Assembly: GCF_041320595.1 (NCBI RefSeq)
Contig: NZ_CP166625.1
Span: 1,251,501-1,315,500, forward strand
DNA length: 64,000 nucleotides
Source: Pleomorphomonas sp. PLEO
GTDB taxonomy: Bacteria > Pseudomonadota > Alphaproteobacteria > Rhizobiales > Pleomorphomonadaceae
Reading direction: 5' to 3'
This document shows, one piece after another, positions 23,436 through 38,049 of the stretch (its first letter is position 1; each line of letters starts with the position of its first letter). Both the position numbers and the translations under genes were made by a program. Below the pieces are notes generated by a model that saw nothing but the letters and a program-made list of their open reading frames with translations, was not told where the DNA came from and searched no databases.

Positions 23436-26400
23436 GTTTCGATCCGCGCCCCTGCGTGAGGGGCGACGGCTTGTCGTTCGCTCGTTCATGGGGTTTGGTT
23501 CGTTTCGATCCGCGCCCCTGCGTGAGGGGCGACCGCCGTTCGGCTTCGGCTGCGTGCCTGATCCGAAGTTTCGATCCGCGCCCCTGCGTGAGGGGCGACG
23601 CTCGGCGCCAAGCAACAAGGCCTGCCGGAGAAGTTTCGATCCGCGCCCCTGCGTGAGGGGCGACAGGACGCGGGTCACTTCGACCTCCGCAGCCAATGGT
23701 TTCGATCCGCGCCCCTGCGTGAGGGGCGACTCTCGATCATCGACCAGCGCGGATCAAAGTGGCTGTTTCGATCCGCGCCCCTGCGTGAGGGGCGACCGCC
23801 GGAGGCCGTCGATGCCCCGAACACGATAGAGTTTCGATCCGCGCCCCTGCGTGAGGGGCGACGCCTGCTTTTGGGCTATGGGCGTAGCCTGAACGGGTTT
23901 CGATCCGCGCCCCTGCGTGAGGGGCGACAAATCCTCGCCGGGGGCGGACCCCAAGGCGCTTGTTTCGATCCGCGCCCCTGCGTGAGGGGCGACGGCGCGG
24001 ATGAACGGAATTCCGTTGGAAATGGCGTTTCGATCCGCGCCCCTGCGTGAGGGGCGACGGTCGCCGGGGAAGGCGCGGATGGTCTGGTAGAAGTTTCGAT
24101 CCGCGCCCCTGCGTGAGGGGCGACGGAGGCCATAGACTGTCTTGCCGGCGCCGAGGTCGTTTCGATCCGCGCCCCTGCGTGAGGGGCGACATTGCGCCTA
24201 TCGCACCATGCTCGACTATCGCGAGTTTCGATCCGCGCCCCTGCGTGAGGGGCGACGACGCGCGGCGAGGCGCTCGACTGGTCGGAGAAGTTTCGATCCG
24301 CGCCCCTGCGTGAGGGGCGACCCGTCACTGCACTACCGCCATCGATAGAGTAGGTGTTTCGATCCGCGCCCCTGCGTGAGGGGCGACATTACCGGATCAT
24401 CAGGCGCAAGCGTAGCACCAGTTTCGATCCGCGCCCCTGCGTGAGGGGCGACAGGTAGTCTTCCATATAGGCGGCTGCGTTGTCGGCGTTTCGATCCGCG
24501 CCCCTGCGTGAGGGGCGACACGGGATTGCTCCATGTCGTCGTCGAGATCGACGGTTTCGATCCGCGCCCCTGCGTGAGGGGCGACTCTCCTCGGAGTTTC
24601 TCCTGCTTGATCAAAAGGTGTTTCGATCCGCGCCCCTGCGTGAGGGGCGACAGGCCGGCCCAAAGCCGTTGCGGTGCTGATGTCCGTTTCGATCCGCGCC
24701 CCTGCGTGAGGGGCGACCGCCATCCGGGCGACAACGGCGAGCACCGTCACTGTTTCGATCCGCGCCCCTGCGTGAGGGGCGACTGCGGGTATTACAAGCT
24801 GCCAACCAACGCGGATTGGTTTCGATCCGCGCCCCTGCGTGAGGGGCGACCATGGCGCCGAAGCATCGGATGGCCGCCGTGGTGGTTTCGATCCGCGCCC
24901 CTGCGTGAGGGGCGACAAGGTCACTGTCGAGCTGATGGGGTGATGCGATGTTTCGATCCGCGCCCCTGCGTGAGGGGCGACCTGCGGTCGCTCGACTATG
25001 TCACCGTCGAGGCGATGTTTCGATCCGCGCCCCTGCGTGAGGGGCGACGGCGGTCTGACGCCAGCGACGGGGTTGACCTTGACGTTTCGATCCGCGCCCC
25101 TGCGTGAGGGGCGACGGCGAGATGTAGATTTCCTGGCCGGGTTGGTTGACGTTTCGATCCGCGCCCCTGCGTGAGGGGCGACGAGCCTGGGGTGTTCCAT
25201 ATCCCAGAAGGTTGCTTTGTTTCGATCCGCGCCCCTGCGTGAGGGGCGACCTCCCAGCCAGCCAGCGGGTCGGCGGCTGTCGGCAGTTTCGATCCGCGCC
25301 CCTGCGTGAGGGGCGACTCCAAGCTCGGCCAGACGGTCCTCGACGATCTTGTGTTTCGATCCGCGCCCCTGCGTGAGGGGCGACAGGTTGGCCGGCGACA
25401 ACTGATCGGTCTTGCGCTGTTTCGATCCGCGCCCCTGCGTGAGGGGCGACAGGCCGATATCGCTGGCAGCCACGAGCTCTACGAGTTTCGATCCGCGCCC
25501 CTGCGTGAGGGGCGACTTCATGGGGCTGAAGGAAATCGCCGGGTCGACCTCGTTTCGATCCGCGCCCCTGCGTGAGGGGCGACTGGCGTCCATCTGGTCG
25601 ACGACGAAGACCTTATCGGTTTCGATCCGCGCCCCTGCGTGAGGGGCGACCAGCGCCACCGCCGGTGGCCGCGTCGGCGATAGAGTTTCGATCCGCGCCC
25701 CTGCGTGAGGGGCGACCAGCTTGCTGGACAAAACCGACCAGCCGGCAGTGAGTTTCGATCCGCGCCCCTGCGTGAGGGGCGACCTAAACTGACATTGACG
25801 CCGATGAGGCCAAAGTTGTTTCGATCCGCGCCCCTGCGTGAGGGGCGACTGGGGCATGACGTGGCGCGGATCGGCGAGTGGCTGTTTCGATCCGCGCCCC
25901 TGCGTGAGGGGCGACAGCGGCTTCGATGGCCGCCTCTATTGCTGGCCAGTTTCGATCCGCGCCCCTGCGTGAGGGGCGACAAGCGCACTGTCACCGGCGA
26001 CCCGGTGTTTGCTTCGTTTCGATCCGCGCCCCTGCGTGAGGGGCGACAACTGCGAGGGCAGCATTTTCGTTGCTCCACAAATGTTTCGATCCGCGCCCCT
26101 GCGTGAGGGGCGACTCAAGCCGCTGCCTGTCCGCGAGATCCTGCACCTGTTTCGATCCGCGCCCCTGCGTGAGGGGCGACGACCACGACGGTGGATGGCG
26201 GCGAGGTGATGGACGTTTCGATCCGCGCCCCTGCGTGAGGGGCGACAAGGTCGCGAGCCCAACGGGGCGCGACGTCAGCGTTTCGATCCGCGCCCCTGCG
26301 TGAGGGGCGACGCGTGGCACGCGATCCTTGAGAGCGCCGCGGCGGAGTTTCGATCCGCGCCCCTGCGTGAGGGGCGACCGCCAGCCTTGGGCCTGGGCCA

Positions 26401-29400
26401 TTATCCATGCCGGGTTTCGATCCGCGCCCCTGCGTGAGGGGCGACCCGGTGCCTCGGCGGCAAGCTGCTCGGCCGGGCACAGTTTCGATCCGCGCCCCTG
26501 CGTGAGGGGCGACGCAAGTCGTTGTGCTCGATGCCGCCAATCAAAGGTTTCGATCCGCGCCCCTGCGTGAGGGGCGACCGGCGGGCGTTGTCCTCGGTCG
26601 GGTGGGCATACATGTTTCGATCCGCGCCCCTGCGTGAGGGGCGACCTGGCGCGGAAGCGGAGACACTGTTCGGGTTGATCGTTTCGATCCGCGCCCCTGC
26701 GTGAGGGGCGACGACCGATCTGATGATCGGACTGCGCCAGCTTGATGTTTCGATCCGCGCCCCTGCGTGAGGGGCGACCGGGCCTCTAGAGACAGGCGAT
26801 GACGGTAAGGATGTTTCGATCCGCGCCCCTGCGTGAGGGGCGACGGCGTGGATCGGAACGACTGGATGGCCAATATCAGTTTCGATCCGCGCCCCTGCGT
26901 GAGGGGCGACCTCCGTCAGCGTGTCGGTGTCTTTGCTATTGAGGTTTCGATCCGCGCCCCTGCGTGAGGGGCGACCTCGCTCTTCTTGGGCACGTGCCGG
27001 CCACTGGACGGTTTCGATCCGCGCCCCTGCGTGAGGGGCGACATGTATCGGTGGCCGTGCTCGACATCTTTATCACCGTTTCGATCCGCGCCCCTGCGTG
27101 AGGGGCGACGGCATATTGTCGTCGGTGACCACCGGCTTCTGAAGTTTCGATCCGCGCCCCTGCGTGAGGGGCGACCGCCCTTGTGAGGCGGGTCTATGGG
27201 TTTAACGATGGTTTCGATCCGCGCCCCTGCGTGAGGGGCGACTTATTCAATCCCGGCGATATTGGTCCGTCTTCTTGGTTTCGATCCGCGCCCCTGCGTG
27301 AGGGGCGACGTGTCAGGCTCGCCCGTCACGTAGACGGTTGGACGTTTCGATCCGCGCCCCTGCGTGAGGGGCGACCCAGAAGGAAAGCCATCGTGCCGCC
27401 AAGGATGGTTTCGATCCGCGCCCCTGCGTGAGGGGCGACGTGACGGCACAATGACCACTGTCGGGGCGCTGGTGTTTCGATCCGCGCCCCTGCGTGAGGG
27501 GCGACAGTGCAATAGCGACACTGACCGCTTTTTACATAACGTTTCGATCCGCGCCCCTGCGTGAGGGGCGACGCCCTTGCCCTACGCATGGCGCTATTGC
27601 TCTAGGGTTTCGATCCGCGCCCCTGCGTGAGGGGCGACTCGACATCGGCTCCGGCCGGCGAGGATTTCGCAAGTTTCGATCCGCGCCCCTGCGTGAGGGG
27701 CGACCCCGAGGCGGACGCAGCCATCGCGGCTATGGCCGTTTCGATCCGCGCCCCTGCGTGAGGGGCGACGTCCGGCGGGGCCGGTGGAACGGGCATCGGC
27801 TGGTTTCGATCCGCGCCCCTGCGTGAGGGGCGACGAGCGTGACCACGTCCGGGTCGCCTTCCTGCTGAAGTTTCGATCCGCGCCCCTGCGTGAGGGGCGA
27901 CCGACGATGCGGATCTTGTGGGACGTGCCGAGCAGCGTTTCGATCCGCGCCCCTGCGTGAGGGGCGACGTTGGGGCATGACGTGGCGCGGATCGGCGAGT
28001 GGCTGTTTCGATCCGCGCCCCTGCGTGAGGGGCGACTCTCGTGCCCGCATTCATCAAAGCATCGAGGGTCTGTTTCGATCCGCGCCCCTGCGTGAGGGGC
28101 GACAACCCTAAGCGTCATCAACAGGAGTCGAGAACATGTTTCGATCCGCGCCCCTGCGTGAGGGGCGACAAGCCAAGTTGGGCCAAACTCATTGCGGATT
28201 GCATGTTTCGATCCGCGCCCCTGCGTGAGGGGCGACGAGCCGATCAACCTGCTTCTGCATGGACTGGCTAGTTTCGATCCGCGCCCCTGCGTGAGGGGCG
28301 ACTGTTCGCGTTTCGGCAGAGCGTCGCGCAATTCCTCGTTTCGATCCGCGCCCCTGCGTGAGGGGCGACGCACGGATCAGGCCAACACGGCGCTGGAAAA
28401 AGCGTTTCGATCCGCGCCCCTGCGTGAGGGGCGACCGTAGCCGGTGGCCCACCGACCGAGCTGGTACGGGTTTCGATCCGCGCCCCTGCGTGAGGGGCGA
28501 CGCGGCCGGCGGCAACATGCTTGCGGGTGATATTGAGGTTTCGATCCGCGCCCCTGCGTGAGGGGCGACCTCCAAGGTCGCGCAGTGCTTTCGGCATCGA
28601 AAACGGTTTCGATCCGCGCCCCTGCGTGAGGGGCGACCTGTCGGCGCCGCCGACCGGCGGGGTGGTGGGCAGGTTTCGATCCGCGCCCCTGCGTGAGGGG
28701 CGACGCCCATTCCTTGGGGATGGCCCTGCCGTAATCGGGGTTTCGATCCGCGCCCCTGCGTGAGGGGCGACTGTCCAATCTATTTCGCGCGCACGCGGGA
28801 ATAAGGGTTTCGATCCGCGCCCCTGCGTGAGGGGCGACTTGATCGCCTTGGGCGGTTGGGTACTATGGTCGATGTTTCGATCCGCGCCCCTGCGTGAGGG
28901 GCGACCGAACGCCTCGGTCAGCACTTCGGGCGACATGGCGTTTCGATCCGCGCCCCTGCGTGAGGGGCGACCGGACTCCATCGGCTCATTGGTCTGGCCT
29001 CCTGGAGTTTCGATCCGCGCCCCTGCGTGAGGGGCGACCATCGCCGATGGTGCAACCGACTTCTCAGTTGGTGTTTCGATCCGCGCCCCTGCGTGAGGGG
29101 CGACCGGCGCCGGGGCGATCGTGCTGGCCGATAAGCCGGTTTCGATCCGCGCCCCTGCGTGAGGGGCGACGATGGGGCACTTCCACACGGCGCTGCAACT
29201 CGAGGTTTCGATCCGCGCCCCTGCGTGAGGGGCGACCTTTGCGGAGTTTCCACCGTGCCAAAGCATGCGAGTTTCGATCCGCGCCCCTGCGTGAGGGGCG
29301 ACCGGTGTTCACGAGGTAGGTCATGGATCAACGCGAGTTTCGATCCGCGCCCCTGCGTGAGGGGCGACTCCCGATGGACCGGCGGCTGAAGCCCCAAACT

Positions 29401-29898
29401 TGGTTTCGATCCGCGCCCCTGCGTGAGGGGCGACATGCGGTCAGCCACCGAGCCAAAGTCGAATTTGTAGTTTCGATCCGCGCCCCTGCGTGAGGGGCGA
29501 CTTAAGGCCATCGGCCTCGCGCCGCAGCTCGTAGCGTTTCGATCCGCGCCCCTGCGTGAGGGGCGACAACGCCGCCAGATCCTGGACATCTGTTGTCACG
29601 AGTTTCGATCCGCGCCCCTGCGTGAGGGGCGACCGTCGATCGCCGCGTCAGCTTCCTGCTCGGCGGTGTTTCGATCCGCGCCCCTGCGTGAGGGGCGACG
29701 CGCGGTCATCTCAGCTGATCTCCTCATACTCGCTGTTTCGATCCGCGCCCCTGCGTGAGGGGCGACCTTCCCACTCGGCAACGCGTTCAATGTGCTCCGG
29801 TTTCGATCCGCGCCCCTGCGTGAGGGGCGACTCCGGCGCATCCGGCAGCATGGCCTCTGGCCAGGAGTTTCGATCCGCGCCCCTGCGTGAGGGGCGAC
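23436..29898 (-). CRISPR. Type I-C CRISPR array, 98 repeats and 97 spacers
   Basis: I counted 98 copies of a 32-bp repeat, all identical as far as I can see. On the plus strand it begins GTTTCGATCC and ends GGGGCGAC; in the transcribed minus orientation it begins GTCGCCCCTC and ends GGATCGAAAC, with an internal GCCCCT/AGGGGC stem, the classical type I-C form. Spacers are 33-36 bp. The repeat start spacing averages 66.3 bp. cas2 and the leader are on the right, so new spacers enter near 29866. One 34-bp spacer occurs twice (25850-25883 and, two bases longer, 27969-28004). Confidence 0.98.
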
Positions 29899-30089: not shown

Positions 30090-30386
30090 TCAGACAATCA
30101 GCGTGCCGCCAAGGTCCACCGCCGGCTTTGCGCCGACATGCTCGATCCGGCGCTGCCAGTTGGCACCGAGGTAGTAGTAGCGCAGGCTGTCGGTCTCCGG
30201 CTTGATGATCGCCTCGAGCCTCGCCTTGAGCTGCGTCCACTGTGCCGGATCAACCTCGATCTCGAAGACCGAAAACTGCACGCGCTGGCCATAGTCGCGG
30301 CATGCCTTGGCGACCGAGCGGAGACGCGCCTTGCCTCCTGGCTCGATGGTGTTGACATCGTAGGTGACAAGAACCAGCACGGCCAC
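30090..30386 (-). CDS. cas2: CRISPR-associated endonuclease Cas2
   Basis: 98 residues. The N-terminal beta strand MAVLVLVTYDVNT carries the conserved Asp (D10), followed by RLRSVAKACRDYGQRVQFSV and FEIEV, the ferredoxin-like fold of Cas2. It forms the Cas1-Cas2 spacer integrase as the central dimer. It starts 3 bp after the cas1 stop and is the last gene of the cas operon, next to the leader. Confidence 0.97.
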   Translation of the reverse strand: MAVLVLVTYDVNTIEPGGKARLRSVAKACRDYGQRVQFSVFEIEVDPAQWTQLKARLEAIIKPETDSLRYYYLGANWQRRIEHVGAKPAVDLGGTLIV

Positions 30387-30389
30387 CTC

Positions 30390-31424
30390 CTATTTCCAGA
30401 ACCATGGCGGATAGGCATCAAGGTCGCCACGGAGGTGACGGGCCAGCATTTGGGCTTGGATGTAAGGCACAAGGCCGAGCGGCGCCTTCTCGTCGAGGAA
30501 GGGGTGCTGCCGTTCGTCTTTCTTGCGTTCCTGCCAAGCGGTCAGAACGGTTTTGCGCGCATCGTCCCGGAGAAACACGGCGCCGCTATCCTGGCGCTCG
30601 AAGTCGCCGGCCCGAAGCTGGCGGCGGTTGACGAGCGACAGCGCCAGCCGGTCGGCCAATACCGGCCGGAGTTCCTCCATGAGATCGAGGGCGAGCGATG
30701 GCCGGCCCGGTCGGTCGCGATGCAGAAATCCGACGGCGGGGTCGAGGCCGACAGCCTCTGCCGCCGCCCGGCAATCGTGGGTGAGCAGCGTGTAGAGGAA
30801 GGACAGCAGCGCGTTGATCGGATCGAGCGGTGGCCGGCGGGAGCGACCGGACCAGCGCAGCTCGGCGTCGGGGCTGCGGATCAGAAGATCGAAGACGGAG
30901 AAGTAGAGGTTGGCCGCCTCTCCTTCCGAGCCGCGCAGTTCGTCGACGCCGCCGTCGGATCGCTCAGCGCGGGCGAGAATACGGGCGAGGCGCTCGACGA
31001 CGCGGCCGATGGCTTCTGCGTCGGTGACGGGATATTCCCCGCCATAGTCCCGAAGAGCCCGCTGCAGCACGGCTCGCTGATTGGCCACCTTGCCGACCAC
31101 CAGCGAGCGGACGATTTCCGTCGGGGTGTCGGACGCAAGGTACTGTGCTCGGCGCAGCAGCACGTTGCCGGAAACCGGCCCCTCGATGCGCGCCTCGAAA
31201 CGGCCGTTGCGATCAAGCAGCACGACGACGATTCCGGCCGAGGCGCAGGCGCCGATCAGGGCAGGCGAGACGCTGATGGCGCCGAACACCACCAGCGAGG
31301 CCAGCATGTGCAGGGGCACCCTGGCTTTTTCTTCTCCGTCGACGAAAGCCACAACGTTCTCGCCGTCCTTGCGGAGGCTCGCCCCTTCGGTGGTGACGTA
31401 GACGGAATTGAGCAGCTTCTTCAT
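30390..31424 (-). CDS. cas1: CRISPR-associated integrase Cas1 (type I-C)
   Basis: 344 residues. N-terminal beta domain (NSVYVTTEGASLRKDGENVV, RVPLHMLASLVVFGAISVSP), then the helical catalytic domain with NALLSFLYTLLTHDC, the His in GLDPAVGFLHRDRPGR and the acidic DLMEEL motif for metal binding. It catalyses insertion of prespacers at the leader-repeat junction. The ATG overlaps the cas4 stop (ATGA). Confidence 0.97.
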   Translation of the reverse strand: MKKLLNSVYVTTEGASLRKDGENVVAFVDGEEKARVPLHMLASLVVFGAISVSPALIGACASAGIVVVLLDRNGRFEARIEGPVSGNVLLRRAQYLASDTPTEIVRSLVVGKVANQRAVLQRALRDYGGEYPVTDAEAIGRVVERLARILARAERSDGGVDELRGSEGEAANLYFSVFDLLIRSPDAELRWSGRSRRPPLDPINALLSFLYTLLTHDCRAAAEAVGLDPAVGFLHRDRPGRPSLALDLMEELRPVLADRLALSLVNRRQLRAGDFERQDSGAVFLRDDARKTVLTAWQERKKDERQHPFLDEKAPLGLVPYIQAQMLARHLRGDLDAYPPWFWK

Positions 31425-32095
31425 GGGGCATCCCCGGCAATGTCGGCGTCGACCATGCGCCGCCGGAAGGCCGCCGCCGAACGCCGCACGGCGGCCGGAC
31501 GACAGAGATCGGCGAGCGAACAGGCCTTGCAGCGACTGCGTTGAGACGTCGGTGGTGGGGTGCGGCCGGAGGCGAAGACGGCGGAGAGTTCGGCGATGGT
31601 GGCGAGCGTCAGCGACCGCAGGCCCTCGTCGAAAGGCACCTCCACTCGGCGACGCGTCTCGGCGTAGAAAAGGGCACCAGCCCGTACAGGCTGGCCCAGC
31701 ATGTCCTCAAGGCAGAGCCCCTGGGCACAAAGCTGGATGTCGTCGGCCCGGTGCAGTTTGGGTTTGCCGCGCTTGAGCTCGACCGGGAAGGCAATCTCGC
31801 CGCCGGCACCGTCGGGCGTGAACTCCACCAAATCGGCAACACCGGCAATGCCAAGCCGCGGCGAGGCAAGCTGCAGGTTGGTGACGCGCCTGAGGCCCTT
31901 CACCCGCCGGCTGCCGGGCTTGTCGACGGCGACGTGCAGCACATGCCCCTCGGCCGTGAAGCGGTTCTCCTCCCAGAGCCTTTCGAGGTGGATCAGCGCC
32001 GCCTGCCGGAGGCAATAGGCGGCGTGCTGCAGTGCCGAGAGCGGGATCGGCTCCCGCTCAGGTGCAATCGCCACCTCCGGCAGGGCCGGTGCCAT
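31421..32095 (-). CDS. cas4: CRISPR-associated exonuclease Cas4
   Basis: 224 residues. RecB-like nuclease: N-terminal Cys (ALQHAAYCLRQ), HVLHVAVD, GIAGVADLVEF with the catalytic Asp, FPVELKRGK with the ExK motif, QLCAQGLCLE, and the C-terminal cluster cysteines CKACSLADLC, which together with the first Cys hold a 4Fe-4S cluster. Cas4 trims prespacers and selects those next to the PAM. ATG 32095 overlaps the cas7 stop; a GTG three bases earlier is an alternative start. Confidence 0.96.
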   Translation of the reverse strand: MAPALPEVAIAPEREPIPLSALQHAAYCLRQAALIHLERLWEENRFTAEGHVLHVAVDKPGSRRVKGLRRVTNLQLASPRLGIAGVADLVEFTPDGAGGEIAFPVELKRGKPKLHRADDIQLCAQGLCLEDMLGQPVRAGALFYAETRRRVEVPFDEGLRSLTLATIAELSAVFASGRTPPPTSQRSRCKACSLADLCRPAAVRRSAAAFRRRMVDADIAGDAP

Positions 32096-33048
32096 CACAA
32101 CCGCTCGATGATCTCGACGCCGTCCGGCAGGCCGGCACGATCGATCTCGACGATGTAGTCGGAGAAGGCGCGGGCCGGTGGTGCGTTGTTGATCCGCGGG
32201 TCCTTCACATCACGGGAGGCGCCGTCGATGTTGCGGCCGACCTTTACCCGCTCGAACAGGGCGTGGGCGGGCGCGTTGCCGAGCGGCAGCGCATGCTTGA
32301 ACACGATCAGCTTGCGGCTGGCCATCTCGCCGCGCGCCGCAGAGTGGTCGTGCTCGAACATCTCCTCGAGCGCTTTGAACAACAAAGCAAGATCGGCCTC
32401 GCCGAAGCCGGTGCGCTCAGCGAGCTTGGCGGAAATGAAGCCATGGGCGCGATAAAGGCCGTAGGGCACGATATGTTTGCGCCCCATGGTGCGGTTGTCG
32501 GTGCGGTCGACACTGTCGTCGCCCTCGGCCTTCTGCTTCTTCTCGGCCTCGTTGGTGGCCGCCATCCGGGTGATGGAGATTTCCTGCGGCACGATCGGCT
32601 CGATTGACTGGGCGAAGGTGAGCTGCGCCGGGCCTCGCACCTGGCCACAGTTGACGCCGGTGCTCATGACGGCGCCGAAGGTTCGCACGTCGAAGAAATT
32701 GCGGCACATGAAGTCGGTCAGCTTCTTCGCCTCGGCGTCGTCCTTGGGGTTTAGCTTGGCGTCCTTGTCGACCTTGGCGTCGCTCGGGCGCAGGGCGCGG
32801 TAGGCCTGTCGGTGCTTGTCGTTGAGGATGGAGCCGTCCTCGACGTAGATGTGCAACCCGTCCTCGCCAGCGTGCGCGAAGTCGACATAGTTGCGGATTT
32901 TACGTTTCAGGCTGACGTCGGAAACGAGGCCGTGGTTGGTCTCCGGGTCGATGCGCGGCATGTTGCCGGCGTCCGGGTCACCGTTGGGGTTGCCGCGAAT
33001 GACGTCGAACAGCAGAACGAAATCATAGCGATTGGCGATGGCGGTCAT
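32095..33048 (-). CDS. cas7: Type I-C Cascade backbone subunit Cas7 (Csd2)
   Basis: 317 residues. It begins with the Cas7 RRM-type motif RYDFVLLFDVIRGNPNGDPD and shows GLVSDVSLKRKIRNYV, FFDVRTFGAVMSTG and GQVRGPAQLTFAQSIEPI. It polymerises along the crRNA; its thumb inserts flip out every sixth base of the guide-target duplex. This matters for the regulatory site described at 35784-35803. It overlaps cas8c and cas4 by ATGA. Confidence 0.97.
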   Translation of the reverse strand: MTAIANRYDFVLLFDVIRGNPNGDPDAGNMPRIDPETNHGLVSDVSLKRKIRNYVDFAHAGEDGLHIYVEDGSILNDKHRQAYRALRPSDAKVDKDAKLNPKDDAEAKKLTDFMCRNFFDVRTFGAVMSTGVNCGQVRGPAQLTFAQSIEPIVPQEISITRMAATNEAEKKQKAEGDDSVDRTDNRTMGRKHIVPYGLYRAHGFISAKLAERTGFGEADLALLFKALEEMFEHDHSAARGEMASRKLIVFKHALPLGNAPAHALFERVKVGRNIDGASRDVKDPRINNAPPARAFSDYIVEIDRAGLPDGVEIIERL

Positions 33049-34814
33049 TTCGCGGTTTCCTCCGAGGCGGTGTCGTCCTTGTGGGATTTGAAAAAGTCGT
33101 TGCGCTGGTGGTAGTAGCCGAGGCCGAACAGCGCCTGATCCTCGGCGGACAGCGAAGCGGGGAATGGATCAGCTGCCGGGTCCATCGCTCCCATGATCTC
33201 GCCGACCAACTTCTCGAGATTGACCTTTCGGCCGGGCGACTGCTTGCCAAGTTTGCTGAGGTGATTGGCCGAGCCACGCTCCAACAGCGAGAACACCTTG
33301 CGCGGCTGGGCAGAGGCGGCGCCGTAGAACTTGTCCTTGACGGTGGCATTCACCTTGCCGCCAAGGGCATCGGTCTGGATGCGTTCGTAGACAGCAAACA
33401 GCCGTCCGAGCCGGTATCCCTTGTTGGGGTAGTCGGGTTGCAGGGCCACAGGTGTATCCTCCCTGGAGAAATTTCTCACGATGATGGCTTTGAGCATGGA
33501 GACGCGCAGCGTGTTGACGTCCTGATCGGACCTCAGCCGCATCAGCACGTTGGACAGCAGCGTCAGCGGATAGGGCGTGCCGGCAAGGATCGAGCGCATC
33601 CACTCGCCGGCAAGATTGGGCGGCACGTTCTCGCGCTTGCCGAGCACGGCGGTTTCAACGAGATAGCGCCAGAGCGGTGGCGAGCCATCACGCGGCGGCG
33701 GCTCAAGCCGCATGTCCTCGACATAGCGGCGGTAGTTCTCGGCCAGCGTTCCGAAGTCCTTGTCGTAGTAGAAGCGGATCGACAGGCGGGCGGCGTTGGG
33801 TGCAAGGCCGAGCACGTAGAAACGGACGCCGTCGGCAAGTTCGGGCGCCACCTTTGACAACGGTTCGCCGGCCTTGATCTGGGCGAGCCTCGTGCCGACA
33901 AGGGCAGCCTGAGCCTTCTCGTCGATCGTCGCCTCTTCCGGGGCGCTGCCTTCGAACAGGCCGGCAAATATGTTTTCAGCTTCACGCTCCTTGTCGGCCT
34001 CGGAGGCGTCGGCCCAGAAGACAGTAGAGGCGTCGCCGATCTGGATGCGGTGGCCGCTGTCCCTTTCGAGGAAGCGGTTGAGCACGGTGGTGTAGGCGAA
34101 GGCGGCGGCCTCCGAGACCTGTGCGTTGTCGCCCTGCTCGTGACCATAGGACGTGAAGGCGTCGAGATTGAAGGAAACGATAGACGCTCCCGACGACTGC
34201 GCGCCCCAGACGCCCTTGATAGCCGGATGGAGACGCGCGACCGGCGCCCGGTCGCCTGACACCAGACAGATCGCCTCCGACTTGTCGCCGGAGGCCGACA
34301 GGCGCGCCCATAGCGCTCGCGCCGCCGGCCGGTCATGGATGCGGATGTCCCTGCGTCGCTCGCTTTCGAGCGCGAAGACGACGTTCTGATCCTTCATCTC
34401 CTGGGGCCAGCCGAGTTCGACGAAGCGCTCGGGCGTCCATGTCTTCAGGAAGCCGACGAGAGCGACAAGACCGGGGTCATCGGCCCCTCCGAGGTCGACT
34501 ATGTGGCGGTCGACGAAGGCCGCATGCTCGTCGGTGGTTCGCTTGCCCTCACCGGCTGTGACGCCGAGCACATAAGAGCTTTTGTCCCAAAGGAAGTTGG
34601 GGGCAATGCCGGCCGTACGCTTGATCGCCTGCGGCACGAACAGCTGTCGCGGCGTGCGCTTCTTGTCTTCGCCACGCAGATCGTGCGGCAAACCGACCGG
34701 TACACCGGCTTCGTCGAGCGCAATCAGGAAGCTGATCTTCTCCGACGAAAAACCAAAGGGCGGAGCGCCCTCCAGTCCATTGTAGGCGTGGACGAGAGAC
34801 GAGAGGATGCTCAT
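33045..34814 (-). CDS. cas8c: Type I-C Cascade large subunit Cas8c (Csd1)
   Basis: 589 residues from ATG 34814, which overlaps the cas5 stop. Longer open reading upstream runs inside cas5 and is not used. Typical Csd1 segments: MSILSSLVHAYNGLEGAPPF, IALDEAGVPVGLPHDLR, RTAGIAPNFLWDKSSYVLGV, and near the end YRLGRLFAVYERIQTDALGG and FGLGYYHQRNDFFK. It recognises the PAM (TTC in studied I-C systems) and recruits Cas3. In type I-C an internal start within cas8c produces the small subunit Cas11; I did not locate that start with confidence. Confidence 0.96.
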   Translation of the reverse strand: MSILSSLVHAYNGLEGAPPFGFSSEKISFLIALDEAGVPVGLPHDLRGEDKKRTPRQLFVPQAIKRTAGIAPNFLWDKSSYVLGVTAGEGKRTTDEHAAFVDRHIVDLGGADDPGLVALVGFLKTWTPERFVELGWPQEMKDQNVVFALESERRRDIRIHDRPAARALWARLSASGDKSEAICLVSGDRAPVARLHPAIKGVWGAQSSGASIVSFNLDAFTSYGHEQGDNAQVSEAAAFAYTTVLNRFLERDSGHRIQIGDASTVFWADASEADKEREAENIFAGLFEGSAPEEATIDEKAQAALVGTRLAQIKAGEPLSKVAPELADGVRFYVLGLAPNAARLSIRFYYDKDFGTLAENYRRYVEDMRLEPPPRDGSPPLWRYLVETAVLGKRENVPPNLAGEWMRSILAGTPYPLTLLSNVLMRLRSDQDVNTLRVSMLKAIIVRNFSREDTPVALQPDYPNKGYRLGRLFAVYERIQTDALGGKVNATVKDKFYGAASAQPRKVFSLLERGSANHLSKLGKQSPGRKVNLEKLVGEIMGAMDPAADPFPASLSAEDQALFGLGYYHQRNDFFKSHKDDTASEETAK

Positions 34815-35509
34815 CGCTTCACCTCCGACGATGTCGGGTGTGGCACTTTGACGACGCCATCCCTTAGCTCGGCGCGGAAGAACAGCGAGGGTCGGCCGGG
34901 TGCGGCATGGTCGATGTCGTAGAGCATGAAGCCGAGATCGCGCGGTTGGCCGAACCCGAGATCGGACGTCCGATCGGGCGGGTCGACGTCGGGGAACGGG
35001 CCATCCGGCGACAGCAGATCGAAGGCGGCGGGGAACTCGCGCGTGCCGAGACAGGGTTGATGGAAGCACTGGCCGCGGGCGGCGCGGCGGTTGAAAGTGT
35101 CGAGGTGCTTGCCTTCGTTGTCGTCGTCGCCAGCCCGCGTCGTCAGTTCGAAATGGGCCGAGATGACATAGGCGACGTCGACCAGCACTGTGGCGGCCCG
35201 CTGCTGACGGTCCTCGTCGACCAGAAGTTGGAAGTCTTCGAGGCTACCCCGGTTCATCGCCGTCTTGATCTTGCCGGCTGGCGCCTTGTGGCCAACCTCG
35301 TTGCGGCGGATCGACTGAAAACGGATCGGTTTCAGCACGCGAATTTCGTCGATGATCCAGCGGATTGCCGGCTTCCAATGGATGGCTTCGAGAATGCCGC
35401 GCGCCGCCGACGGCGTCATCACGTCATAAGAGACGCGCTCCACCTTCATCTCGGGGCGCGTGAAGCAGGCCCGGTCGCCAGAAACCTTCAGTCGGATGCC
35501 ATAGGGCAT
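34811..35509 (-). CDS. cas5: Type I-C Cas5 (Cas5c/d), crRNA-processing endoribonuclease
   Basis: 232 residues. MPYGIRLKVSGDRACFTRPE, VERVSYDVMTPSAARGILEA and IHWKPAIRW are the classical Cas5d N-terminus; GTREFPAAFDLL lies in the second half. In type I-C this protein replaces Cas6: it cuts the repeat hairpin and keeps the 11-nt 5' handle. ATG 35509 follows GAGGAG. Upstream in its probable mRNA lie a 10-bp hairpin and one isolated CRISPR repeat, a predicted substrate of Cas5 itself. It starts the cas5-8c-7-4-1-2 operon. Confidence 0.96.
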   Translation of the reverse strand: MPYGIRLKVSGDRACFTRPEMKVERVSYDVMTPSAARGILEAIHWKPAIRWIIDEIRVLKPIRFQSIRRNEVGHKAPAGKIKTAMNRGSLEDFQLLVDEDRQQRAATVLVDVAYVISAHFELTTRAGDDDNEGKHLDTFNRRAARGQCFHQPCLGTREFPAAFDLLSPDGPFPDVDPPDRTSDLGFGQPRDLGFMLYDIDHAAPGRPSLFFRAELRDGVVKVPHPTSSEVKR

Positions 35510-35529
35510 GCTTTCACTCCTCGAAATAG

Positions 35530-35616
35530 CCTCCGGGGAGAATCCCCGGAGGTTTTTCAGCTAGAGCGTGAAACACATAACTATGTTTCGATCCGCGCCC
35601 CTGCGTGAGGGGCGAC
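35530..35616 (-). ncRNA. Solitary CRISPR repeat plus spacer-like guide and hairpin (CreR/CreA-like RNA candidate)
   Basis: 35585-35616 is a perfect 32-bp copy of the array repeat in the same orientation, standing alone 5.7 kb from the array. On the minus strand it is followed by a 32-nt spacer-sized segment (35584-35553) and, where the next repeat would be, by a perfect 10-bp hairpin CCTCCGGGGA-ttc-TCCCCGGAGG (35552-35530). The segment starts ATAGTTATGTGTTTCAC, which matches the site at 35787-35803 in 15 of 17 positions behind a TTC PAM. This suggests a crRNA-like RNA, cut by Cas5 from the cas5 leader, that guides Cascade to its own upstream region. The function is inference. Confidence 0.75.
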
Positions 35617-35625
35617 AAGTGTCCA

Positions 35626-35718
35626 TCAGGACAACAGATCAATAACAACCTTGATGGCTAGCGCCAGAAGCTTCGACACAAAATCCCAGCGCCAGTCGTC
35701 GGATTTCCAGGGCTTCAT
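35626..35718 (-). CDS. 30-residue ORF between cas3 and the solitary repeat
   Basis: ATG 35718 to TGA 35626, preceded by GGAG with a 7-nt spacer, an excellent ribosome binding site. The peptide has a Trp-rich charged start (MKPWKSDDWRWDF) and a hydrophobic amphipathic end (VSKLLALAIKVVIDLLS), the general look of a small membrane-active toxin, though a leader peptide is also possible. It lies downstream of the predicted Cascade target and ends 10 bp before the solitary repeat, the place a CreT-type toxin would occupy. An overlapping 49-codon ORF (ATG 35788 to 35639) in another frame lacks a ribosome binding site. Confidence 0.45.
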   Translation of the reverse strand: MKPWKSDDWRWDFVSKLLALAIKVVIDLLS

Positions 35719-35783
35719 TGCTCAACTCCGGTGTGCACCTCGGCACCACCAAGAGATGGGATAAGATCCCTTCTTCGTCAAGG

Positions 35784-35803
35784 TTCATAGTAATGTGATT
35801 CAC
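35784..35803 (+). promoter_or_regulatory. Predicted Cascade target (TTC PAM plus 17-nt partial protospacer) upstream of the cas5 operon
   Basis: Plus strand: TTC (35784-35786) then ATAGTAATGTGATTCAC (35787-35803). Compared with the solitary-repeat guide, positions 6 and 12 differ, 1-5, 7-11 and 13-17 agree, and the match ends at position 18. On the minus strand a TACTAT lies inside the target and TTGACG (35781-35776) directly beyond the PAM, so a bound Cascade would block a promoter here. No full promoter was proven. Confidence 0.65.
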
Positions 35804-35811
35804 AAACAGTT

Positions 35812-38049
35812 TTACCAGATCTGGCTTTCTGTCGCCAAATACTCCGCGTCGTCCCACAGCAGTCCAACGCCATCCGTGTAGAGATCGGGCGTTTGCAGCA
35901 CGGCGAACTGGTCGCCACGCAGCCCCTCCTGTTCGAGCCGCACGTGGCCGAGGGCCATCAGTCGCGCCCGCGCCTTGGGCGGCACCTGAACGACGAAGCC
36001 CTGTAAGGCACGGGCGAGAGCGCCAGACGGGACGTCCTTCAAGCCAAGCTTGTCCAGGACCTTCGCTGCTTCCGGCTCACTTGCCACGATTACCGGCAAC
36101 AGACCGCTGTCGATCATCCGGAAATTCTCGCCGATAGTGCGATAGGCAAAGCTAGTCGTGCCGAGGGCGCCATCGAGGCGGAGCTTTTCGAGGATGCACT
36201 CGCGGTCGAGGTCATCCCCTACTCGCCAGAACACCTCCTCGAAATAGTCGGTGATGGCTGCGGGCGAGAACAGATCGCCATGCTTGCCCTTGATGCGCTC
36301 GAAATCGCCGATCAGTCCCTCGATCTCCCGCGGCGTCGTGTAGCCGACCGGTTTGAAAACCGTGACTATACTCTTGTCAGGATCGCGCCGGCCTTCGCGG
36401 TTGACGCGCCCCGCCGCCTGCGCCAACTGATCCAGCCCCGCTTCGGCGCGGAAGGCGCAGGGAAAATCGAGATCGACGCCGGCCTCGACCAACGATGTGG
36501 CGATCAGCCGACAGGGCAGATCATGCTTCAAGCGATGCCGGACATCGGCGAGGATGCGGCGACGATGTACGGCGTATTGCCGGGTCGTCAGGTGGATAAT
36601 GCCGTCGAGACCAGCTTCGCATGCCTGCTTGAAGAGATCGAGCACGTGAGCACGGCTGTTGGCGATCACCAGCGCTTGCGGTCGGTCGGCGAGCGCTGAG
36701 ACGAGGGCGTCATTGTCCATCTCGCCGGTAAGTTCCAGGCGGACGCGGCGCAGCTGACGGCTGAGGCCCTCCGGATCTGGCGCCAGCTCGCGGTCGGCGA
36801 GCGGCAGGCCGTGCTTAGGGAAATGCTTCTTGCCAAGCGCCGGCTGCGTCGCTGTACAGAGCACCACCGAGGTGCCGTAGTTGTTCGCCAGTTCGTTGAT
36901 CGCCCGCATGATCGGTATCAGGAAGGGGCGCGGCAGTGTCTGTGCCTCGTCAAGCACGATCACCGAGCGAGCGATGTTGTGCAGCTTGCGGCAGCGCGAG
37001 GGTCGATGGGAAAAGAGGCTTTCAAACAGCTGGACGTTGGTGGTGACGACGACGGGCGCGTCCCAGTTCTCGCGCGCCAGCTTCAGCTTGTCGCGGTCGG
37101 CGCGCGACCTAAGCTCCTCCTCGTCGAGCGCCGAGTGATGCTCGAGCACATGTTCGTCGCCCAGCACGTCTCGGAAAATATCGGCTGTTTGGTCGATCAC
37201 CGACGTGAAGGGGATGGCGTAGATGATGCGGTCGAGCCCGTGGGCGCGGGCGTGCTCCAGCGCAAAGGCGAGCGAGGTCAGCGTCTTGCCGCCGCCGGTT
37301 GGCACCGTCAGCGTGAACAGGCCCAGCGGATCGCTGGCCTTCGCGCGAACATGGGCGAGCACCTCGGCACGCAGGCGATTGACCGGGTTGTCGGCCGCGG
37401 CCGTGGTCTTGTTCGTCATGTAGGCGTCAAAACCGGAGATGAAGCCGGGCAGCAGGTCGGCAAGGCGCCGCCATGCGCGGTCGATGGTCAGCCCCTCGAC
37501 CCGGGCGTAGAATTGCTCGGTGTCCTGGAAGTCGGCGTCGGCGAGGCAGGAGAACAGCATGCGGCCAAGCATGGCAAACGAGAAGCCGGGCTGGTCGGTC
37601 TGCTTCAGCTTCTTGACGAGGCCGACGGTATCGACATCGTTGGGCAGATAGCTCGTCCACGCCGGATCGAGACCATCGGGATCGAACTCGGCCAGACGCG
37701 CATGCAGCGAGCTACCGTCGCCGGTCCAATCGGGAAGGCCGGCGTGATGTCCGGCGACGGCGTAGGCGACGAGGTCGGCCATCAGCTTCTCTGGGCCGAC
37801 CCAGTTGCGCTTGCGGACGAGATAGGCACCGGCCAGCGAATGCTCGACGGATGGCCCGCCCCTCAGCCTGCGATCGAACCCCTCGGTTGCCTTGCCAATA
37901 TCGTGGTAGTGTCCGGACAGGCGGGCGGCGCCCTGCATGCCGAACGACGCCGCCATCAGTGCGGCCAGACCGGCCACAGCTTCGAGGTGGTCCGGCAAGG
38001 TTTGCCAATCACCGCGACACGAATCGCCGGTGGAATGCGCGTAATGCAT
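35812..38049 (-). CDS. cas3: CRISPR-associated helicase-nuclease Cas3 (type I-C)
   Basis: 745 residues. N-terminal HD nuclease with DH20-21 (PDHLEAVAGL), the GHYHDIGKATEGFDRRL motif (H47, H49, D50) and AGHHAG; SF2 helicase with Walker A GGGKTLTSLAFALEHA, DEAQ box (VLDEAQTLP), SAT-like CTATQPA and motif VI QAAGRVNREGRRD; C-terminal accessory domain. It degrades DNA marked by Cascade. It is separated from cas5 by about 300 bp with its own control elements, so the effector nuclease and the Cascade operon can be regulated differently. Confidence 0.97.
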   Translation of the reverse strand: MHYAHSTGDSCRGDWQTLPDHLEAVAGLAALMAASFGMQGAARLSGHYHDIGKATEGFDRRLRGGPSVEHSLAGAYLVRKRNWVGPEKLMADLVAYAVAGHHAGLPDWTGDGSSLHARLAEFDPDGLDPAWTSYLPNDVDTVGLVKKLKQTDQPGFSFAMLGRMLFSCLADADFQDTEQFYARVEGLTIDRAWRRLADLLPGFISGFDAYMTNKTTAAADNPVNRLRAEVLAHVRAKASDPLGLFTLTVPTGGGKTLTSLAFALEHARAHGLDRIIYAIPFTSVIDQTADIFRDVLGDEHVLEHHSALDEEELRSRADRDKLKLARENWDAPVVVTTNVQLFESLFSHRPSRCRKLHNIARSVIVLDEAQTLPRPFLIPIMRAINELANNYGTSVVLCTATQPALGKKHFPKHGLPLADRELAPDPEGLSRQLRRVRLELTGEMDNDALVSALADRPQALVIANSRAHVLDLFKQACEAGLDGIIHLTTRQYAVHRRRILADVRHRLKHDLPCRLIATSLVEAGVDLDFPCAFRAEAGLDQLAQAAGRVNREGRRDPDKSIVTVFKPVGYTTPREIEGLIGDFERIKGKHGDLFSPAAITDYFEEVFWRVGDDLDRECILEKLRLDGALGTTSFAYRTIGENFRMIDSGLLPVIVASEPEAAKVLDKLGLKDVPSGALARALQGFVVQVPPKARARLMALGHVRLEQEGLRGDQFAVLQTPDLYTDGVGLLWDDAEYLATESQIW

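Follow-up and report, generated by a model that had tools for sequence, protein, structure and literature searches.

Why should one perfect CRISPR repeat stand alone between cas3 and cas5 of a type I-C locus? The question is raised by a stretch of 64,000 nucleotides (nt) from Pleomorphomonas sp. PLEO (NZ_CP166625.1, positions 1,251,501 to 1,315,500), hereafter the window, whose minus strand carries a complete type I-C locus with cas3, cas5c, cas8c, cas7, cas4, cas1 and cas2. An earlier sequence-only reading had proposed that the bases past the solitary 32-bp repeat form a guide, which leads the Cascade effector to a partly matching site upstream of its own cas operon and silences that operon, a small gene in front of it, or both. 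The repeat lies where it was placed, in a 302-bp cas3-cas5 junction with the complete locus around it; it is identical to 98 exact copies in the nearby array, and 99 exact copies exist genome-wide. The minus-strand bases past it, ATAGTTATGTGTTTCAC, match a plus-strand target at 15 of 17 positions, with misses at 6 and 12 and the next at 18, and TTC precedes the target as protospacer adjacent motif (PAM), all as recomputation reproduced it. A scan of the 5.48-Mb genome for TTC plus the guide pattern (positions 6 and 12 free, at most three mismatches) returned the target and the guide itself only. In the order of transcription, the cas3 stop is followed by the target, a weak promoter-like stretch, an open reading frame (ORF) of 30 codons, the repeat, the guide, a hairpin and cas5 (Table 1). 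The sequence-only reading had not listed this ORF as a feature. The arrangement is probably a CreTA-like CRISPR-addiction module of type I-C, in which a creA-like repeat and guide would silence a probable small membrane peptide toxin (creT-like).

Covariation of guide and target in related loci, which the sequence-only reading had suggested as a check, was examined in Cas5c loci from the best 80 genome contigs, from the order, class, phylum and genus of the window, from four other families, and from four of the 56 plasmid records with a match; genome matches without a locus, among them 7 of 37 places in one search, were left unused. Removal of 12 duplicate junctions and of 11 without an upstream cas3 reduced 178 Cas5c loci to 155 distinct cas3-cas5 junctions. 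The scan covered this junction alone, and loci with short junctions may carry an element elsewhere. Repeat handles were defined as at least 8 of the 9 bases of GGATnGAAAC on either strand, and the 17 bases after each were compared with both strands of their own junction, with positions 6 and 12 ignored (15 scored). Because these two positions were omitted on account of the window, the 28 other loci described below constitute an independent test.

Junction length was under 120 bp in 95 of the 155 and at least 120 bp in 60, of which 40 measured 250-399 bp. The long junctions held 37 handles (in 35 of the 60) and the short ones three; no handle in a short junction had its own TTC target, the best own matches of the three lying without TTC. 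For 29 of the 37 candidates (28 of 36 without the window), the best own-target match reached at least 11 of 15 beside TTC, vs 4 of 2,183 pairings of these guides with other junctions and 13 of 3,700 guides with shuffled letters (100 shuffles for each candidate). At 12 of 15 or better, these counts were 26 own matches, one junction swap and none of the 3,700 shuffled guides. The guide-target match is confirmed as real and far beyond chance, and comparison of the junctions strongly supports a crRNA-like (CRISPR RNA-like) element for guiding Cascade, with covariation of guide and target. Eight candidates without an own TTC target were set aside: the second candidate of L029, L037, L052, two in L054, L133, L134 and L181. 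L037 was excluded with a partial seed match and a shifted handle. One of the two L054 candidates matches at 13/15, but beside TTT, and L133 and L134, two loci of one genome, show 15/15 matches, but beside GTC and GCC, possibly through use of a different PAM.

The 29 modules, as loci with an own TTC target are called here, include 28 distinct guides with a mean pairwise identity of 4.97 of 17, and 3 of 378 pairs share at least 12 bases; with guides almost wholly dissimilar from one locus to the next, guide and target have evolved in step. Among the 29 modules, positions 1-5, 7-11, 13 and 14 are mismatched 0-4 times each, and positions 15-17, which are part of the selecting score, 8-12 times. 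The unscored positions 6 and 12 are mismatched in 24/29 and 22/29, and positions 18-30, likewise unscored, match in 105 of 377 cells (28%). Unread bases should be mismatched in about 75% of cases; by this measure, neither position 6 nor position 12 seems to be read, as expected if type I Cascades skip every sixth guide base. These alignments indicate that pairing is unconstrained at positions 6 and 12 as well as past 17.

Target, ORF where present, repeat and guide are oriented toward cas5 in 22 of the 29 modules, and in the other seven the module is inverted with the same internal order kept. At least 120 bp separate target and repeat in 24 modules (170 bp in the window, where the target lies about 280 bp upstream of cas5). 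ORFs were picked in this interval by a fixed rule blind to composition, and were called hydrophobic at a 17-residue hydropathy of at least 1.6. Among the 18 forward modules with room, the rule yielded an ORF in 17, of which 11 contain a membrane-like stretch; these hydrophobic ORFs span 30-54 codons, with MRIPSWGEHDFWSSIVAIVVLAFIKILVWTVSE (L101), MRLPPLKEPEFWSNVAIITVYVLVKLVRLCNNP (L029) and MQYPNEHFKLYRRISAILRLALGVLRLIMMLRFIL (L169) as examples. In controls over all 24 modules with room, hydrophobic picks made up 96 of 1,694 from shuffled and 1 of 13 from antisense sequence. The 30-codon ORF of the window, preceded by GGAG, has a maximum 17-residue hydropathy of 2.05.

Six of the seven inverted modules code for an unrelated conserved peptide of about 26-32 residues, xRRxYAxRxxxGxxxIxxELDLEPP/I-like (e.g., RRRYAFR...ELDLEPI). 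Over 15 pairs, the pooled proportion of synonymous differences (pS) is 0.79, near saturation, and that of nonsynonymous differences (pN) 0.28, a ratio of 0.36 compared with 1.02 and 2.56 in the other frames. This codon pattern indicates purifying selection on the inverted-class peptide and argues for a peptide rather than an RNA toxin. A profile of this peptide, run on 377 genomes of the order, gave a single strong match (3.3e-15), located in the genome that carries module L111 (G200), at a distance of about 100 bases from cas5; the 13 others, with E 0.01-0.095, resemble noise. Pfam searches with seven peptides and two neighboring ORFs produced three matches in all, each under the curated cut-offs; the 30-residue peptide of the window had no match at E <= 1, and Rfam gave no match over positions 34500-36500 at E <= 0.1.

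Hairpins with 8 or more pairs, beginning 22-44 nt past the repeat, occur in 22/29 modules vs 54/1,450 shuffles, and one of this strength separates the guide from cas5 in 15 of the 22 forward modules. On the target side, the best -35-like hexamer starts between -6 and +12 from the PAM in 15 of the 20 modules with an opposite-strand target, in a search that ranged from -29 to +30 around the PAM without position control. The -35 of the window starts 5 nt from the first base of the PAM complement. Cascade bound at a -35 hexamer so near the PAM would block polymerase. A claim that the repeat stem is conserved, assessed by folding, was dropped, as the rule was met by 27/29 modules but also by 1,176/1,450 shuffles. 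In three of the 22 forward modules (L010, L029, L101), inverted arms of 9-16 nt flank the repeat-guide unit, with the 3′ arm ending at most 3 nt from the cas5 start codon; shuffles equaled these arms in 0, 5 and 0% of cases, respectively (60 shuffles each). Since the arms reach the cas5 start, cas5 translation might depend on repeat cleavage at these three loci.

Presence of the module is scattered. On a Cas5 tree of 129 of the 155 loci (short Cas5 and those under 55% identity were dropped), the 22 forward modules require 19 changes (shuffled mean 20.6) and the seven inverted ones 7, and the five nearest Cas5 relatives of the window are without a module. In the window's genus, a type I-C cas5 occurs in 3 of 14 genomes, and the other two junctions measure 12 and 18 bp vs 302 bp. 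This distribution better fits a cassette that is often gained and lost, like toxin-antitoxin modules, than a standing control of the cas operon.

From the anatomy of the module, the guide-target match, its covariation and its scattered presence, all read directly in the compared sequences, we infer a toxic ORF guarded in the following way. Cas5c, given as the processor of I-C crRNA in PMC10651486, would cut the solitary repeat and leave a handle-guide RNA, which would end at the downstream hairpin, roughly in the place of a second repeat, and load Cascade. The type I-C Cascade would then sit on the target at the -35 of the ORF's likely promoter and silence the putative toxin and, with pairing ending at position 17, would recruit no Cas3. 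Upon loss of Cascade or its inhibition by an anti-CRISPR, the putative toxin would be made, and the cell would be dependent on its own CRISPR effector. The order of ORF and guide suggests that they belong to a single transcript; in that case, leaky transcription would itself deliver the guide that shuts the promoter. Between the two silencing targets that the sequence-only reading had allowed, the small gene in front is the likelier. Repression of cas5-8c-7-4-1-2 as the purpose is less likely, because the target precedes an ORF led by a Shine-Dalgarno (SD) sequence at a distance from cas5, because the module order is kept upon inversion, mostly with a conserved peptide, and because most junctions are short and lack a handle with its own TTC target. 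Autorepression of cas genes is possible as an added effect, or as the main effect in the ORF-less loci L123-L125.

Several observations weigh against a guarded peptide toxin. In the window, the hydrophobic ATG ORF lost out to an overlapping TTG ORF under the blind rule, and 6 of the 17 forward picks, the window's included, are not hydrophobic. Five modules (L018, L067, L123, L124, L125) have less than 120 bp from target to repeat, the rule finds no ORF in L120, and L010 (guide match 15/15) and L016 (11/15) carry ORFs that are seemingly broken. Protein-level selection is weak for the hydrophobic class, three related ORFs giving a pN/pS of 0.63 vs 0.79 and 1.06 in the other frames. Promoter matches are modest, being equaled by about 27% of shuffles on average, and that of the window is poor: it agrees with 7 of 12 consensus positions, a score equaled or bettered by 0.285 of shuffles and weak alone, and a stricter sigma-70 scan of the window region detected no promoter. 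The seven inverted modules have their target 3-114 nt from where cas5 starts, so that cas5 could be repressed too. Junctions with an insert of any kind show mild clustering on the Cas5 tree, where the label "none" takes 26 changes against a shuffled mean of 33.6, with 3 of 500 shuffles as low. Finally, the mini-ORFs of the studied I-B and I-F cases accompanied an RNA toxin (PMC10097628, PMC8501985).

Among competing explanations, a CreR-like autorepressor fares best, and we regard it as rather unlikely. Here the guide would bring Cascade to the promoter of cas5-8c-7-4-1-2, the effector would limit its own synthesis, and the small ORF would be incidental or a leader peptide. Such control would suit a module that precedes cas5, with read-through transcription possible, as well as the nearness of the inverted-module targets to the cas5 start and the full guide match that L010 retains despite its broken-looking ORF; in L123-L125, target, promoter-like sequence (TTGACG, 17-18 nt, A-rich -10) and repeat occupy about 80 bp directly before cas5. 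However, 170 bp and an SD-preceded ORF lie between target and repeat in the window, a strong hairpin stands between guide and cas5, and the inverted modules show conservation at the peptide level; absence of such an element from the 95 short junctions of 155, and its scatter on the Cas5 tree, would be odd for core regulation. It is improbable that both functions are combined, in that one promoter serves toxin ORF, guide and, via read-through, the cas5 operon, and one Cascade site both guards the toxin and tunes the effector. The orientation shared by 22/29 modules is consistent with this, as is the strong promoter for downstream cas genes in the haloarchaeal I-B creTA region (PMC9458426), but 7/29 modules are inverted and the hairpin intervenes between guide and cas5 in 15/22 forward modules. 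A relic, i.e., a stray copy of the array repeat with a chance match, would account for a repeat identical to the array copies, as after recent duplication, but is very improbable, and hardly tenable for the family, since the match recurs in 28 other junctions with nearly all different guides and the counts of own matches against swaps and shuffles (0/3,700 at 12 or better) rule out a chance or relic origin.

The favored reading, a small toxin guarded by Cascade, would make the type I-C module a variant of the CreTA-type CRISPR-guarded toxins, to which it is likened by function and anatomy. As in CreTA of haloarchaea (I-B) and Acinetobacter (I-F), a repeat-derived guide inside the cas locus partly matches a PAM-flanked site close to the promoter of a small ORF with an SD sequence, and unpaired guide positions fall at or near every sixth (6, 11 and 18 in I-F; PMC10097628). 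The window has the ectopic repeat by the cas genes followed by a spacer-like guide, the partial match to a PAM-flanked site at a predicted promoter, weak in this case, and, just past the target, an SD-led ORF with a putative toxin role. Differences from these I-B and I-F cases of CreTA are the system type (I-C), one perfect repeat plus a hairpin where most CreTA have two degenerate repeats, toxin ORF and guide in the same direction rather than divergent as in I-F, and predicted peptide toxins of two unrelated kinds, whereas the CreT toxins of those cases act as RNA (type VIII toxin-antitoxin).

CreR, which occurs in types I-B, I-E and V-A according to PMC13131331, resembles the module in that a crRNA-like RNA guides the effector to a promoter within its own cas locus. 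L123-L125 resemble CreR and are candidates for CreR-like type I-C elements. In contrast, the window and 17 further modules have, by the blind rule, a small peptide ORF between target and repeat; CreR is without toxin coupling, and the small ORF is present in the window and absent from L123-L125. CreR targets a cas promoter; the window target lies about 280 bp upstream of cas5, with the ORF and the hairpin between. CrePA (PMC12737573) shares a protein toxin repressed by a crRNA-like RNA and a CRISPR effector; its toxin typically has a KilA-N domain, and the ORF of the window, a 30-residue hydrophobic peptide without a Pfam match, places it outside that group. Racr and phage solitary repeat units, with an I-C case on record (PMC10651486), share the solitary repeat. 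Racr, however, is carried by a virus or other mobile element and inhibits CRISPR, whereas the repeat of the window is flanked by cas3 and cas5 within a complete host locus, and a target matching its guide is found close by. A literature search by titles and abstract beginnings found no such module in type I-C. The standalone-repeat survey of Shmakov et al. from 2023 reportedly describes, for many type I systems, mini-arrays whose spacers match the promoters of cas or cargo genes; as it may list some I-C loci, priority is not claimed.

Table 1. Coordinates of the solitary-repeat module and neighboring features (positions within the window).
Feature	Position	Strand	Remarks
cas3	35812..38049	-	
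TTC PAM (35784-35786) and protospacer-like target (35787-35803)	35784..35803	+	adjoins cas3 stop on its downstream side; 15/17 guide match
Weak predicted promoter	35753..35781	-	-35 TTGACG at 35776-35781, 17-nt spacer, -10-like CATCTC at 35753-35758
Shine-Dalgarno-like GGAG	35726..35729	-	7 nt 5′ of the ATG of the small ORF
Small ORF, 30 codons, MKPWKSDDWRWDFVSKLLALAIKVVIDLLS	35626..35718	-	predicted membrane peptide (hydropathy); proposed toxin, creT-like
Solitary CRISPR repeat, 32 bp (creA-like)	35585..35616	-	same as array repeat
Guide, 17 nt	35568..35584	-	matches target except at positions 6 and 12; pairing ends at 18
Strong GC hairpin	35530..35552	-	predicted 3′ end of guide RNA; starts 33 nt past repeat, about the place of a second repeat
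cas5c	34811..35509	-	predicted repeat-processing nuclease
cas8c, cas7, cas4, cas1, cas2	30090..34820	-	
CRISPR array	23436..29898	-	98 exact repeats

The module of the window may be young. Its solitary repeat is the same as the 98 array repeats, and the solitary repeats of the 28 relatives, compared with it, share 13-31 of 32 bases. Other inserts are found at the same place: 11 of the 60 long junctions instead encode a conserved protein, about 90-115 residues long and GIY-YIG-like at its start (VYKITWPNGKIYVGSDLTD), namely those of L017, L019, L025, L027, L031, L034, L058, L066, L107, L113 and L173, the copy in L173 being broken. When junction ORFs were searched for the Pfam GIY-YIG family, L058 scored E 0.21, under the cut-off, and L107 had no match.

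In a broader view, which we hold to be about evenly balanced between true and false, the type I-C cas3-cas5 junction would be a hot spot of interchangeable, orientation-independent guard cassettes. In each, a single repeat that guides Cascade would be locked onto the promoter of one of two or more unrelated peptide toxins (membrane peptides or the RRRYAFR...ELDLEPI peptide). Repeatedly gained and lost, the cassettes would poison cells whose Cascade is disabled by phage anti-CRISPRs or by mutation, and their naturally evolved guides would read out the I-C pairing rule, with positions 6 and 12 ignored and pairing halted at 17 so that Cascade binds but does not cut. If true, these modules would form a peptide-toxin branch of the CRISPR-addiction modules, and type I-C loci would protect themselves through peptide toxins that their own effector keeps in check; this would partly account for the persistence of these loci and provide hosts with an answer to anti-CRISPR phages. 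In addition, the 28 distinct guide-target pairs make up a natural dataset on the bases that a type I-C Cascade needs for stable, non-cutting binding, of use for repression tools based on type I-C.

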